A DNA stretch of 20,004 bases from a virus (IMGVR_UViG_3300025132_004496:1-20004); one strand, 5' to 3'; counted from the stretch's first letter, positions 2,309-16,014 are shown. Notes: a model not told the origin generated them from the sequence alone. Translations and numbers: made by a program.

Positions 2309-2340
2309 TTTTATTAAATCCTTGTTTTCACAAGGCTCCT
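2309..2340 (-). promoter_or_regulatory. Structured leader: SD, GAAA-loop hairpin, start codon
   Basis: On the minus strand the order is AGGAG (2340-2336), hairpin CCTTGT-GAAA-ACAAGG (2335-2320), eleven AT-rich bases, then ATG at 2308. Unfolded, AGGAG is about 27 bases from the ATG; folded, about 11. The second possible SD, AAGGA, overlaps the 3' arm and would be hidden by folding. Three leaders in the right arm have the same layout. Confidence 0.6.
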
Positions 2341-12274: not shown

Positions 12275-12625
12275 ATGAAAGACTTAGTTTTAAGAAAAAG
12301 GTTAGCAAATAAAATTGCTAAACTTGAAAGGGATAAATCTGTGATGGATTATCTCGAATGTAAAAAGCAACTTAACTCTGCTGAAAGTAGAATTAAGAAT
12401 GCTGTAAAGTCTAACTTAATTGTTAGACCAAACTCAATACTTGTTGGCAAAGGTTGGAAGACTTGGACCAATGAAACCAATACTATTGAGCCTGTTAGAA
12501 ATTCAGTTTCTATTGATGGCATGATAGGAGATAGTAAGAATGAAATTCACTATCATGTAAGACATAGACAAGGCTATGAAGTTAAGCCAACTATGGTTGT
12601 AACTCTAAGGGATAGGGTAGCGTAA
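12275..12625 (+). CDS. Unknown 116-residue protein, first gene of the right arm
   Basis: The first half is helical and charged (LRKRLANKIAKLERDKSVMDYLE), the second half more beta-like with aromatic and charged residues (GKGWKTWTNETN, NEIHYHVRHRQG). No membrane segment or known motif is seen. The ATG has GGAGA five bases upstream. Being the first gene after the divergent control region, it would be among the earliest expressed rightward genes. Its stop shares a base with the next start (TAATG). No family is recognised. Confidence 0.75.
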   Translation: MKDLVLRKRLANKIAKLERDKSVMDYLECKKQLNSAESRIKNAVKSNLIVRPNSILVGKGWKTWTNETNTIEPVRNSVSIDGMIGDSKNEIHYHVRHRQGYEVKPTMVVTLRDRVA

Positions 12626-12957
12626 TGGAAAGATTACCTAATAATCTAATGCCTAACTTTGCTGATCGAGAGGTCAGCAAAGAACAGGCAGCCGAGGAAC
12701 TTTACAAAGCTTTATGTGAAGTTGCCAAACTCAATGGGCATGATCCAAAATGCGAAGTCTCAATAATGAAAGACCACAATAAATTTGGGGAAATTAATGA
12801 GGGTGACATTTGGGTTACTTATGAAGCTGGACCATTTGATTGGGGCGTAGGCTATTCTTTAGGATCTCATCCTGAAAGTTATACTTGGCCTAAGACCAAT
12901 CAAGACTGGTATCTTGAAACCTATTATGGATTTGATGTCATTTTTACAGACATCTAA
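12625..12957 (+). CDS. Unknown acidic 110-residue protein
   Basis: An acidic, aromatic-rich protein. The N-terminus is helical (SKEQAAEELYKALCEVAKL), followed by a probable beta-sheet part with many Trp and Tyr residues (GDIWVTYEAGPFDWGVGYS, WYLETYYGFDVIF). Small acidic phage proteins of this kind often bind host proteins, but no family is recognised here. It is coupled to the preceding gene (TAATG) and followed directly by a hairpin leader. Confidence 0.75.
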   Translation: MERLPNNLMPNFADREVSKEQAAEELYKALCEVAKLNGHDPKCEVSIMKDHNKFGEINEGDIWVTYEAGPFDWGVGYSLGSHPESYTWPKTNQDWYLETYYGFDVIFTDI

Positions 12958-12958
12958 T

Positions 12959-12993
12959 AGGAGTGCCAGGGCAGAAATGCCCTGGCTTTTATT
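12959..12993 (+). promoter_or_regulatory. SD, GAAA-loop hairpin and start codon (copy 1); possible terminator
   Basis: AGGAG (12959-12963), one base, then a perfect 9-bp stem GCCAGGGCA / TGCCCTGGC with GAAA loop (12965-12986), then TTTTATT and the ATG at 12994. If folded, SD and ATG are effectively eight bases apart. The stem followed by four T residues could also act as a weak terminator; both functions may coexist. Confidence 0.62.
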
Positions 12994-13152
12994 ATGAAAA
13001 ATACAAAAGAAATAAAAATGCCGTCTTTTCATAAGACTGTTAATGTAGATAAAATTAATACTTTTTCACTAAAAGAACTTAAAGCACTTGATAGACTTTT
13101 AGATGGTAAAGCAACCAAGAAAGACTATAAAACTTTAAGGGGGAGAAAATGA
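12994..13152 (+). CDS. Small unknown protein (52 aa)
   Basis: ATG 12994 opens a 52-residue, Lys-rich protein with a helical segment (FSLKELKALDRLLDGKATKKDY). Its only upstream SD is AGGAG on the far side of the hairpin at 12965-12986. An alternative ATG eight codons later has no SD. It overlaps the next gene as ATGA. Function unknown. Confidence 0.6.
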   Translation: MKNTKEIKMPSFHKTVNVDKINTFSLKELKALDRLLDGKATKKDYKTLRGRK

Positions 13153-13271
13153 AAAATAATAAATGGAATTGTTACGAGATAGATTTTTGGAATAAGACAA
13201 GACCAAAAAGAAATAGAAACTATTTGATCTGTTTGATGATAGGTATTGTAATTGGAATTTTTATAAATTAA
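13149..13271 (+). CDS. One-helix membrane microprotein (40 aa)
   Basis: A 40-residue protein with an aromatic and basic N-terminal half (NKWNCYEIDFWNKTRPKRNRN) and a hydrophobic C-terminal helix (YLICLMIGIVIGIFIN). It is expected to sit in the inner membrane with the basic part in the cytoplasm. ATG 13149 overlaps the preceding stop as ATGA with GGGGGAG just upstream, a strong site. Confidence 0.62.
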   Translation: MKNNKWNCYEIDFWNKTRPKRNRNYLICLMIGIVIGIFIN

Positions 13272-13282
13272 GAGAGGTTAAA

Positions 13283-13405
13283 ATGCTACATGAAATATTT
13301 ATACTCTTAGCTATGTTGTTATCTCTATCTTCACTAATAGCATTAGTGATAGCTACAGCAATATACCTGGGAGCATTCAAAGGTTATCTAGAAGAAGAAG
13401 ACTAG
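13283..13405 (+). CDS. One-helix membrane microprotein (40 aa)
   Basis: A 40-residue protein that is almost entirely one hydrophobic helix (residues 5-32, FILLAMLLSLSSLIALVIAT then AIYLG) with an acidic tail ending EEED. AGAGAGG precedes the ATG at 13283 at good spacing. It is the last gene before the terminator at 13424. Together with the preceding gene it forms a pair of tiny membrane proteins; a role at the host envelope is possible but unproven. Confidence 0.62.
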   Translation: MLHEIFILLAMLLSLSSLIALVIATAIYLGAFKGYLEEED

Positions 13406-13423
13406 ATAGCAAAGACTTAAAGA

Positions 13424-13449
13424 GCCAGGACTTGTGCCTGGCTTTTTTT
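13424..13449 (+). terminator. Intrinsic terminator of the first rightward unit
   Basis: Stem GCCAGG / CCTGGC (13424-13429 and 13437-13442) with a seven-base loop, followed by seven T residues (13443-13449). It lies 18 bases after the stop of the second membrane microprotein. Confidence 0.85.
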
Positions 13450-13456
13450 GTGTATG

Positions 13457-13486
13457 CAAATAGATCTATATCAAATAGATCTATAT
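13457..13486. repeat. Tandem 15-bp repeat, each with the palindrome ATAGATCTAT
   Basis: CAAATAGATCTATAT occurs twice head to tail (13457-13471, 13472-13486). Each copy contains the perfect 10-bp palindrome ATAGATCTAT, so two identical symmetric sites lie 15 bp apart, typical of cooperative dimer binding. Confidence 0.85.
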
Positions 13487-13497
13487 CTAAAATATTC

Positions 13498-13566
13498 TAT
13501 GCACTCGCTCGCAGAAATATTTTTATGCACTAGCTCGCACAAAATATAAACGGATCGGATCGCAGA
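13498..13566 (+). repeat. GCTCGCA motif cluster 1 (three copies)
   Basis: The motif appears at 13507-13515 (GCTCGCAGA), 13533-13541 (GCTCGCACA) and 13558-13566 (GATCGCAGA), 26 and 25 bases apart. The first two units share a longer core, TATGCACT-n-GCTCGCA followed by A-rich sequence. All lie in one orientation in the gap 13406-13691. The remainder of this gap holds a tandem palindrome, CGGATCGGATCG at 13551-13562, and promoter box P2. Confidence 0.75.
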
Positions 13567-13613
13567 AACTTTGTTATGGTCTTACCTTCCTATTTTGCCA
13601 CCTGCTTTTTTTA

Positions 13614-13633
13614 CTTTACATTTTGTATATAAT
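13614..13633 (+). promoter_or_regulatory. Promoter/operator box P2
   Basis: CTTTACATTTTGTATATAAT carries TATAAT at 13628-13633 and matches the box at 15430 in 14 of its first 16 positions. It precedes the second rightward unit, whose first start is ATG 13692. A clear -35 box is not seen. Confidence 0.5.
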
Positions 13634-13691
13634 ATCTGATAATAATACTATCAATTGCAATTATGTAATTGTGTTATGGAGAAAATTTATT

Positions 13692-14132
13692 ATGGGAAAT
13701 AGAGCCGTAATATCTACGAAAGTTGAGGGCGTGCCAAAAAAGTATAGCCCATCAATTTATTTACATTGGAATGGTGGACGCCCTAGCGTTGAAGCTTTTC
13801 TAAAATGTGCCAAGATACTTGGCGTCAGGTTAGGGGATGACCAATATTCACTAGCTAGACTTTGCCAAGTTATCTCAAACTTTCTTGGAGGAACTCTATC
13901 CATTGGCGTGGGTGTTTATGCAAACATGGACACAGACAATGGCGACAATGGAGTTTACTGGGTCAAGAATGGAAAAATTGTTAAGCGAGAATTTGACGGA
14001 GGTCATGAGCAAACTGCGACCGATGAAGAATTTAACGAGCTAGTGGATTATATACTGGAAAAAAACAAATCACATTTTCCAGTGAAATTTACGGGGAAAG
14101 AATATCAACTTAAAAATGAGTGGGAGGAATAA
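13692..14132 (+). CDS. Conserved phage protein of the MGNRAVI type
   Basis: The 146-residue protein begins MGNRAVIS and has IYLHWNGGRPSVEAFLKCAK, a combination I recognise from a widespread phage and plasmid family of unknown function, followed by LARLCQVISNFLGGTLSIGVG, also typical. The C-terminus is acidic and helical. I set the start at ATG 13692 because the family begins at MGNRAV and GGAGA lies ten bases upstream; a longer reading from 13623 would add 23 unrelated residues. It is the first gene after promoter box P2. It is probably a soluble cytoplasmic protein. Confidence 0.82.
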   Translation: MGNRAVISTKVEGVPKKYSPSIYLHWNGGRPSVEAFLKCAKILGVRLGDDQYSLARLCQVISNFLGGTLSIGVGVYANMDTDNGDNGVYWVKNGKIVKREFDGGHEQTATDEEFNELVDYILEKNKSHFPVKFTGKEYQLKNEWEE

Positions 14133-14136
14133 AACC

Positions 14137-14394
14137 ATGAGTTTAGTTAGATACGAAACAGCCCAAGAATATTTAGATGATGACAACATTACAAGTTCAA
14201 ACCAAGTGGCATGGTCAACTTTAGAACTTGAAGAATTATCTAACGGCTGTTCTGCTTACGATATGTTATACCATATACCAGAAGGCGACCCAAGAGAATT
14301 TTTTCTTATGAGAAGAGAACTTGAGTTGACAAGAGAAGATGCAATCAAAGTGTTTAACCTTTGGTTGTTGGGTAATAAATTTCCAAACGAATAA
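14137..14394 (+). CDS. Unknown acidic 85-residue protein
   Basis: An acidic, mostly helical protein (YETAQEYLDDDN, LELEELSNGCSAYDML, RRELELTREDAIKVFNLWLL). The start at ATG 14137 is chosen because GGAGGA lies eleven bases upstream; a start at 14116 would lie inside the preceding gene. It begins four bases after the MGNRAVI-type gene. The next hairpin leader begins directly at its stop codon. No family is recognised. Confidence 0.74.
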   Translation: MSLVRYETAQEYLDDDNITSSNQVAWSTLELEELSNGCSAYDMLYHIPEGDPREFFLMRRELELTREDAIKVFNLWLLGNKFPNE

Positions 14395-14429
14395 GGGAGG
14401 GGGGTGTAGAAATACACCCCTAGTTTATT
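14394..14429 (+). promoter_or_regulatory. SD, GAAA-loop hairpin and start codon (copy 2)
   Basis: AGGGAGG (14394-14400) runs straight into a perfect 8-bp stem GGGGTGTA / TACACCCC with GAAA loop (14401-14420), then TAGTTTATT and the ATG at 14430. Folding brings SD and ATG to an effective nine bases. There is no proper T-run, so it does not look like a terminator. The same hairpin recurs at 14737. Confidence 0.68.
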
Positions 14430-14729
14430 ATGGAAAAAGTATATTTAGGTCATGTGGCAGTAGATAGTGGACAGCTAATGGTCACTGATCCATCTTATGT
14501 GCGTGATTTTGATAACAACAACTTCGAAGACGCTGAACCCGATAATTCCTACAGCTACAATGGCTCCTGCCACACTACCTTAAACGAAGATGGCGGTGGC
14601 ATGTTGCAACACAATGGTATTTATTTAGGAGTAGCATTTTCTAGTGGCTATGGTGATGGTAGGTATCCTGTTTATGGTTACATGAATAAGGATCAACGCA
14701 TCACTAAAGTTGAAATTTTAATGGACTAA
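14430..14729 (+). CDS. DUF4241-like phage protein
   Basis: A 99-residue protein with VGHVAVDSGQ-like opening (GHVAVDSGQLMVTDPSYV), a central SYSYNGSCHTT and a C-terminal FSSGYGDGRYPVYGYMN. These fit the DUF4241 group of small beta-rich proteins found in phages and bacteria; function unknown, family recalled from memory. The only SD is on the far side of the hairpin at 14401-14420. It is flanked on both sides by nearly identical hairpin repeats, so it may be a movable cassette. Confidence 0.72.
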   Translation: MEKVYLGHVAVDSGQLMVTDPSYVRDFDNNNFEDAEPDNSYSYNGSCHTTLNEDGGGMLQHNGIYLGVAFSSGYGDGRYPVYGYMNKDQRITKVEILMD

Positions 14730-14730
14730 A

Positions 14731-14765
14731 GGAGGGGGGGTGTAGAAATACACCCCTGATTGATT
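14731..14765 (+). promoter_or_regulatory. SD, GAAA-loop hairpin and start codon (copy 3)
   Basis: AAGGAGG (14729-14735) and the stem GGGGTGTA / TACACCCC with GAAA loop (14737-14756) are followed by TGATTGATT and the ATG at 14766. It matches copy 2 base for base through the hairpin apart from one extra G. Effective SD-ATG distance when folded is about ten bases. Confidence 0.68.
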
Positions 14766-14933
14766 ATGACTAGAAAAATAAATAGATCTAAGAAATACAT
14801 AACAGAAGATGGTTATGTTTTTAAATTAGAAAAAGATGGAACTTTAACTGATGGCGATATGACTTTTAATTCTTTAGAAGATTTAAAAAAAGTAGTTGAT
14901 GTAAAACTTTATCGTGGATCAAAAATAAAGTGA
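14766..14933 (+). CDS. Small unknown basic protein (55 aa)
   Basis: A 55-residue protein with a basic N-terminus (MTRKINRSKKYI), a likely beta-hairpin (DGYVFKLEKDGTLTDGD) and a helical end (FNSLEDLKKVVDVKLY). It depends on the SD placed before the hairpin at 14737-14756, since no other SD is near. It is the last gene before the terminator at 14941-14994. No family is recognised. Confidence 0.66.
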   Translation: MTRKINRSKKYITEDGYVFKLEKDGTLTDGDMTFNSLEDLKKVVDVKLYRGSKIK

Positions 14934-15011: not shown

Positions 15012-15117
15012 TTTGCAAAAGCTCGCAGTTTTGATTTAGAATTGGAACTGTTCACTTTCATAAGTTTTCTCCAAGTGTGTGAATGTGTAGCCCGATGTAA
15101 AAGTCGGGCTTTTTTTT
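15012..15117 (+). ncRNA. Candidate small RNA with own promoter and terminator
   Basis: TTGCAA (15012-15017), an 18-base spacer containing a GCTCGCAG motif, and TAGAAT (15036-15041) form a possible promoter. An intrinsic terminator follows at 15089-15117 with no open frame between. The product would be about 65-70 bases. The promoter is only moderately convincing, and the terminator could instead be a back-up for the one at 14941. Confidence 0.3.
15089..15117 (+). terminator. Intrinsic terminator in the non-coding gap
   Basis: Stem AGCCCGA / TCGGGCT (15089-15095, 15104-15110) with an eight-base loop and eight T residues (15110-15117). It stands 95 bases after another terminator with no gene in between, so what it terminates is unclear. 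Confidence 0.82.
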
Positions 15118-15232
15118 ACCTATCGGCTCGCAGATTTCCTGGACGCACAAGCTCGCAGATTTATAAACAACTCGGCTCGCACATGGGAAGTGTCAGGGCG
15201 CAGATTAATTTACCTGGTCGCAGATTAATCGG

Positions 15233-15261
15233 CAGACCTGAATAAAAATTTTTGAGGTCTG
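15233..15261. repeat. Inverted repeat CAGACCT / AGGTCTG around AAAAATTTTT
   Basis: CAGACCT (15233-15239) and AGGTCTG (15255-15261) flank a 15-base loop that contains the palindrome AAAAATTTTT. It directly follows the last GCTCGCA-type copy. It lacks a clear T-run on either strand, so it is not an obvious terminator. Confidence 0.6.
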
Positions 15262-15740: not shown

Positions 15741-15988
15741 TGAAAGATAAAAAAGTATTAAATAACTTTACTAATCCATTAGTAAAGGAGATTAACGAAA
15801 AAATTGCTAAACTTTTAGAAGAGTATGGTGATGAATATTATAAACTTTATGTCTTTGAAAATCGTTGGGAAAATGACAGATTTTTACAAGACGAAGAGGT
15901 AGCAATAAATAAAAGAGAAAACAAATATCTATTTTGTTTAGTAGATAAAAGTATTTTTGAAAGGAGAATGAATAAGAGAGAGGGGTAA
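15740..15988 (+). CDS. Unknown 82-residue charged protein
   Basis: A highly charged, probably helical protein (LVKEINEKIAKLLEEYGDEYYKLY, then DDEEVAINKRENKY-like and ERRMNKREG). It is coupled to the preceding gene through TAATG, with AAGGGGA upstream. Its stop codon lies inside the hairpin of the following terminator. No known motif is seen. Confidence 0.72.
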   Translation: MKDKKVLNNFTNPLVKEINEKIAKLLEEYGDEYYKLYVFENRWENDRFLQDEEVAINKRENKYLFCLVDKSIFERRMNKREG

Positions 15989-16007
15989 TACCCTTTCTCT
16001 TTTTTTT
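15973..16007 (+). terminator. Intrinsic terminator overlapping a stop codon
   Basis: An 11-bp stem with one G-U pair, AAGAGAGAGGG (15973-15983) against CCCTTTCTCTT (15990-16000), loop GTAATA, followed by a run of T residues to about 16006. The TAA of the preceding gene is in the loop, so ribosomes finishing that gene would cover the stem and could favour read-through. Confidence 0.82.
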
Positions 16008-16014
16008 AAGACCT

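Follow-up and report, generated by a model that had tools for sequence, protein, structure and literature searches.

Three small genes in a marine phage genome are preceded by leaders in which a perfect hairpin with a GAAA loop lies between the Shine-Dalgarno (SD) sequence and the start codon. It is likely, with a probability of roughly three in four, that each of them works as an accommodated (split) ribosome-binding site like those of T4 genes 38 and 25. This reading is supported by a layout beyond chance expectation, by covariation of the stem, by homologues with an ordinary SD and no hairpin, and by the same layout in the T4 gene 38 leader. As comparison of related leaders indicates, evolution has maintained the fold, which probably pulls the SD and the start codon to working distance.

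The phage and its relatives

The window, i.e. the whole stretch of DNA that was analysed, is a 20,004-base virus record from IMG/VR (IMGVR_UViG_3300025132_004496:1-20004). Head and packaging genes (terminase, SU10-like portal, capsid) are on the minus strand, and from position 12275 the plus strand carries many small genes. Terminase identity is 62% with Pelagibacter phage HTVC027P and 58% with HTVC023P, which identifies the window, judged by this kinship, as a pelagiphage-type marine phage; its host would then be the SAR11 bacterium Pelagibacter. Five IMG/VR records have the same region: L013/L020 (99.9% alike to the window), L018/L021, L019 and L022 (about 95%) and L023 (91%, terminase). The clade with the leader is small and consists of the window, these five records and one fragment that matches the L023 leader. 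Rfam gives no match at gathering score anywhere in the window.

Layout of the three leaders

The order of elements is common to all three leaders: stop codon, SD, perfect GAAA-loop hairpin, 7 to 9 AT-rich bases and ATG. The elements and the genes behind them are the following.

12955-12957, plus strand: stop codon TAA upstream of copy 1, ending gene 12625-12957
12959..12963, plus strand: SD of copy 1, AGGAG, two bases past the stop of gene 12625-12957
12965..12986, plus strand: hairpin of copy 1, 9 bp, loop GAAA at 12974-12977; compensatory changes in L022 and L023
12994..13152, plus strand: gene behind copy 1, 52 aa; homologue in L018 with the same start
14394..14400, plus strand: SD of copy 2, AGGGAGG, overlapping the stop TAA (14392-14394) of gene 14137-14394
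14401..14420, plus strand: hairpin of copy 2, 8 bp, loop GAAA at 14409-14412; a ninth G.U pair is possible
14430..14729, plus strand: gene behind copy 2, 99 aa, DUF4241 (Pfam PF14025, E 1.7e-8; phrog_5209)
14729..14735, plus strand: SD of copy 3, AAGGAGG, overlapping the stop TAA (14727-14729) of gene 14430-14729
14737..14756, plus strand: hairpin of copy 3, 8 bp, loop GAAA at 14745-14748; double change in L019
14766..14933, plus strand: gene behind copy 3, 55 aa; codon-level identical in L019

The arms of copy 1, GCCAGGGCA (12965-12973) and TGCCCTGGC (12978-12986), are followed by TTTTATT and the ATG at 12994. In copy 2 the arms are GGGGTGTA (14401-14408) and TACACCCC (14413-14420), and the tail TAGTTTATT leads to the ATG at 14430; in copy 3 the arms occupy 14737-14744 and 14749-14756, with the tail TGATTGATT before the ATG at 14766. 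All three hairpins begin 7-8 nt past the end of the upstream stop codon. The linear distance from the SD core to the ATG is 29-30 nt in each leader, and looping out the hairpin reduces it to 8, 9 and 10 nt in copies 1, 2 and 3, respectively. The first-pass annotation had claimed precisely this, namely that at 12994, 14430 and 14766 the SD is too far from the ATG, that a perfect 8-9 bp GAAA hairpin fills the gap and that folding leaves 8, 9 and 10 nt; the elements can be read directly in the sequence and the coordinates agree. It had also stated that the stems differ between copy 1 and copies 2-3 while the layout is kept, which holds. Copies 2 and 3 are not independent of each other: they are one duplicated sequence of 40 nt with 88% identity, therefore there are two sequence types and not three independent ones. 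The two types may in turn be related by duplication.

Pairing energies were calculated with an anti-SD that may not be that of the real host. Specifically, they are −6.8, −10.9 and −11.2 kcal/mol at the far SD of copies 1, 2 and 3 and −1.5, 0 and 0 kcal/mol near the ATG, i.e. none of the three leaders has a usable SD at normal spacing. Most other plus-strand genes in the window have a good SD at about 3-10 nt. To estimate chance expectation, the 43 leaders of the window were shuffled 1000 times with their dinucleotides preserved, and stems of 8 bp or longer were counted. The shuffles gave a mean of 0.007 SD-hairpin-ATG leaders and a maximum of 1, as compared to 3 observed.

A candidate fourth leader is located among the minus-strand genes.

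2309..2340, minus strand: AGGAG, 6-bp stem CCTTGT/ACAAGG, GAAA loop and 11-nt tail, before the 190-aa capsid-adjacent gene 2308-1736

Its status is ambiguous because the 3' arm of the hairpin holds AAGGA 10 nt from the ATG. Among the matches listed, an ordinary SD precedes most homologues of the 190-aa gene that lie outside the closest records, and this type of hairpin was seen in none of them. A mini-ORF in the hairpin of copy 1, starting at an ATG in the stem and with a frame ending as ATGA on the real start, was rejected, as L022 and L023 have other frames or immediate stops there. Two further kinds of element were noticed in the region. An 11-bp perfect hairpin, conserved in L023, is present at 12657-12682 inside the coding gene 12625-12957 (CTTTGCTGATCGAGAGGTCAGCAAAG), and many short repeats around GCTCGCA(G/C) occur in the non-coding gaps 13495-13560 and 15015-15260 and also in L023.

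Covariation of the stem in related phages

The five related records contain eleven further leaders of the SD-hairpin-ATG kind, seven of which differ from the three in the window. The SD, the layout and the folded spacing are kept in all of them, and the loop is always GNRA, either GAAA or GCAA. The copy 1 stem is GCCAGGGCA-GAAA-TGCCCTGGC in the window, GCTGGGGCA-GAAA-TGCCCTAGC in L022 and CCTGGGGCA-GCAA-TGCCCCAGG in L023. For copy 2, the stem GGGGTGTA-GAAA-TACACCCC of the window corresponds to GGGGTATA-GAAA-TATACCCC in L019 and to GGGGCGTA-GCAA-TGCGCCCC in L023, with compensatory changes in both (a G-C to A-U double change in L019 and T-A to C-G in L023). In L019 (minus strand) the leaders of the 55-aa gene and of a gene whose product begins with MELLTID have an identical double change, GTGTA/TACAC to GTATA/TATAC. 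Since both rearranged copies carry it, the sequences suggest conversion between the copies.

The covariation set comprises seven distinct stems. In these, 96.8% of the stem cells are paired and 7 of the 9 stem pairs have changed on both sides. The covariation score is 0.815 compared with 0.307 ± 0.072 in shuffles, and 0 of 500 shuffles reached it. Every slid register of the stem alignment is much worse than the true one, and RNAalifold, unprompted, predicts the same 9 pairs and the inner stem only. The search for covariation in related phage genomes that the first-pass annotation had proposed thus came out in favour of its argument that the structure itself is kept: compensatory changes retain the stem while its sequence varies. 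It is important to note that the stem changes represent few evolutionary events, the clade being as small as it is. Judged from these stems the hairpin matters, and covariation does not give the reason why.

Genes behind the leaders

The genes following the leaders are exchanged between relatives. Behind copy 1, the 52-aa gene of the window differs from its L018 homologue by 7 synonymous and 5 non-synonymous codons; in L022 the gene corresponding to 13149 is joined directly to the leader, and L023 has another gene. Behind copy 2, the window has the DUF4241 gene and L018, L019 and L023 have the unrelated MELLTID gene. The window and L019 match through the sixth base of the gene (14435) and again from 14730, with the copy 3 SD; they differ only in the gene between copies 2 and 3 (DUF4241 vs MELLTID). 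By these comparisons the leaders look like joints for the exchange of small genes, copies 2 and 3 would have served as boundaries for the exchange of the gene between them, and the leader belongs to the junction and not to the gene behind it. The gene just before copy 1 in the window (12625-12957) is absent from L018 and L019.

The same genes are also found without the hairpin. The MELLTID gene has the hairpin leader in L018, L019 and L023 and an ordinary SD in L102-L106 (aaggagataaat-ATG or similar), and its homologues start at the same codon. An ordinary SD precedes the DUF4241 homologue in L005 (aaggagaataag-ATG) and the homologue of the 55-aa gene in L025 (ggagaaagacta-ATG). In the window, gene 13149 follows an SD of its own (aagggggagaaa-ATG); in L022 it follows a hairpin leader. 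Homologous leaders that lack the hairpin and keep the long distance, which the first-pass annotation had named as evidence against a role of the fold, were looked for and none was found; the homologues without the hairpin have a normally spaced SD. Regarding the start codon, alignments with close relatives begin at residue 1 for DUF4241 and for the small genes, as does the DUF4241 alignment with L005, and by such alignments the AUG behind the hairpin should be the real start. A TTG in frame upstream of the ATG at 14766 was considered as an alternative start and discarded. It is absent in L019, therefore the ATG is the likely start.

Distribution of the layout

A survey was made of 6915 distinct leaders, derived from ORFs of at least 40 aa in the fetched loci, spurious ORFs included. 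Of these leaders, 64 contain a hairpin with a stem of 7 bp or more that ends 4-12 nt before the ATG, and in 15 of the 64 an SD lies directly upstream of it. Ten of the 15 are in the window's clade and the other five look spurious, i.e. among the 6915 leaders there is no convincing SD-hairpin-ATG layout outside this clade. A previous version of the scan gave AGGAG directly before such hairpins 10 times and other permutations of 3G+2A 0-6 times, the most frequent of these (AAGGG and AGGGA) being SD-like themselves. Two IUPAC scans of all IMG/VR returned the same clade only, plus fragment L280 (the record of L101). The scan of hairpins before ATG picks out T4 gene 38 as well, which served as a positive control. 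Several other candidates were rejected. L054, L061, L124 and L132/L133 look like spurious ORFs or terminators, exact IMG/VR matches to the palindrome of copies 2 and 3, located in the five unrelated contigs L012 and L014-L017, are without the SD-hairpin-ATG layout and represent chance or terminators, and weak covariance-model matches (G019, G027, G029, G009, G040) are likewise terminators or chance.

The opposite order, stop-hairpin-SD-ATG, was found in 55 cases, including genes of HTVC027P and HTVC023P. GC-rich intergenic hairpins that lack a T-run and have a GNRA or UUCG loop are common between stop codon and SD in the phage family (L041, L043, L045, L048, L060, L064, L071, L154 and L175; HTVC027P 36113-36167; HTVC023P 27377-27427), where possible roles are those of insulators or of processing or 3'-end stabilising elements. 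At the end of L022 a hairpin identical to one at the end of L019 precedes another gene, with the SD after the hairpin.

Alternative readings

A possible, tentatively held alternative, overlapping with the reading as an accommodated ribosome-binding site, is that the leaders are dual elements, which in addition act as attenuators or as insulators like the ribosome termination structure (PMC7518266). The hairpins begin 7-8 nt past the stop, near the peak of the ribosome termination signal (PMC7518266), post-stop hairpins are common in the wider phage family, and copy 1 combines a U-rich tail with the SD layout. On the other hand, termination structures are reported to be depleted in operons and to inhibit re-initiation (PMC7518266), and such a structure alone does not predict the spacing of SD, hairpin and ATG.

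An unlikely alternative is that the hairpins act on the upstream gene by weak intrinsic termination or attenuation, the next gene being expressed by read-through from an SD-less start. Terminator scores (d'Aubenton-Carafa-type) are +36 for copy 1, which ends in TTTTATT, and −16 and −22 for copies 2 and 3. The scores are mixed in relatives too, with +26 for copy 1 of L022 and +20 for copy 2 of L023, and they are −16 to −28 for copies 2 and 3 together with the two rearranged L019 leaders, therefore plain termination cannot explain the set. The first-pass annotation had dismissed plain terminators on the ground that two of the three leaders lack a T-run; this is right for copies 2 and 3, which are below the threshold. 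The third leader, copy 1, has a T-rich tail and a terminator-like score. Copy 1 may also attenuate transcription. A terminator would be expected to covary as well, and one gene of the window, 16015, has a terminator-like hairpin with T8 directly before its start (15974-16014) and no SD after it. However, the U-tract of the leaders is not conserved while the SD and the spacing are, typical terminators of the window end in 7-8 T, and relatives usually place hairpins before the SD. Moreover, termination does not predict an SD upstream of the hairpin and none after it in every copy.

A translational coupling switch, in which a larger fold would hide SD and AUG until upstream ribosomes open it, is quite improbable. 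The predicted minimum-energy folds of copies 1 and 2 do extend the stem by AU pairing of the stop/SD region with the tail, and when longer stretches are folded parts of the SD or AUG are predicted to pair with the flanks in some leaders, but these outer pairs are weak (A-U, G.U) and vary between leaders and relatives, SD and AUG are mostly open in the predicted folds of L019_3 and L023_1, and the inner stem alone is predicted by RNAalifold. Finally, a repeated sequence left by recombination and having no RNA role is hardly credible: copies 2 and 3 are a direct repeat flanking an exchanged gene, but compensatory changes keep the stem as its sequence changes.

Proposed mechanism

For an accommodated ribosome-binding site, the following events can be envisaged. 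The 30S subunit would bind the SD just past the upstream stop codon, and the GNRA-capped hairpin would fold and be looped out, placing the AUG 8-10 nt from the SD, i.e. within the roughly 3-10 nt of the window's other genes. Translation would then start at the AUG behind the hairpin. As in T4 genes 25 and 38, ribosomes would presumably use the far SD, translation would be raised by the fold, and the leader would work whatever gene follows. A more speculative extension, which we put forward as doubtful, is that the leader is a portable gene-independent translation module: its copies in the operon would act as homologous joints for start-codon swaps of accessory genes, and the hairpin would shield the upstream stop and guarantee a ribosome-binding site for any gene.

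The leaders belong to a lineage independent of T4; each genome has several copies, the stems evolve by compensatory change, and the same gene occurs with and without the hairpin. These natural controls and the compensatory evolution allow the mechanism to be tested through sequence evolution in addition to reporters. Our results are also a warning for gene finders, and for start prediction based on the SD, where nothing but the linear spacing is scored, and they suggest a route for phages to exchange small genes without rebuilding ribosome-binding sites.

Comparison with known systems

As far as we have searched, the repeated, gene-independent and covarying use of such leaders in a pelagiphage-like lineage is new, and so is the gene swap exactly between two leaders; the kind itself is known. 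In the openly searchable literature, no natural cases of a hairpin rescuing a distant SD were found beyond two T4 genes. In T4 gene 38 an SD-AUG distance of 22 nt is reported to be cut to 5 nt by the structure, and in gene 25 one of 27 nt to 11 nt; destabilising mutations are reported to lower initiation (PMC3014915). The gene 25 leader lies at the gene 26-25 junction (Nivinskas 1999; Malys and Nivinskas 2009, as cited in PMC3014915), and the arrangement is confined to close T-even relatives (PMC3014915).

Two other classes of hairpin share single features with the window leaders. Ribosome termination structures are stable hairpins described just after stop codons (PMC7518266), and the window hairpins resemble them in lying a few nt past the stop, within about 10 nt; ribosome termination structures differ in that they are reported to insulate, to be depleted inside operons and to inhibit re-initiation, and in having no SD-hairpin-AUG geometry. 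Intrinsic terminators have a GC-rich hairpin in common with the leaders and, for copy 1, a U-rich tail, whereas copies 2 and 3 and the relatives have no conserved U-tract and the SD is conserved upstream, with none downstream.

Gene 25 is similar in that a hairpin brings a distant SD to working distance and is conserved in close relatives only, and it differs by a weaker hairpin, a non-GNRA loop and a single junction. To our knowledge, the gene 25 leader is not re-used before other genes. Gene 25 had been suggested as precedent by the first-pass annotation, which agrees with what is reported for it (PMC3014915), and the gene 38 sequence has the same layout as the window leaders: TAAGGAG, a hairpin with UUCG loop, an AU-rich tail and AUG (TAAGGAGAGGGGCTTCGGCCCTTCTAAATATG). 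In both, the SD overlaps the upstream stop, a perfect GC-rich hairpin with a stable tetraloop follows right after the SD, and a short AU-rich tail leads to the AUG. Gene 38 differs in its UUCG loop, in being present in one copy, in the reported folded spacing of 5 nt and in its product, a tail-fibre assembly factor. At the level of sequence, the window leaders have every feature of the T4 gene 38/25 kind.
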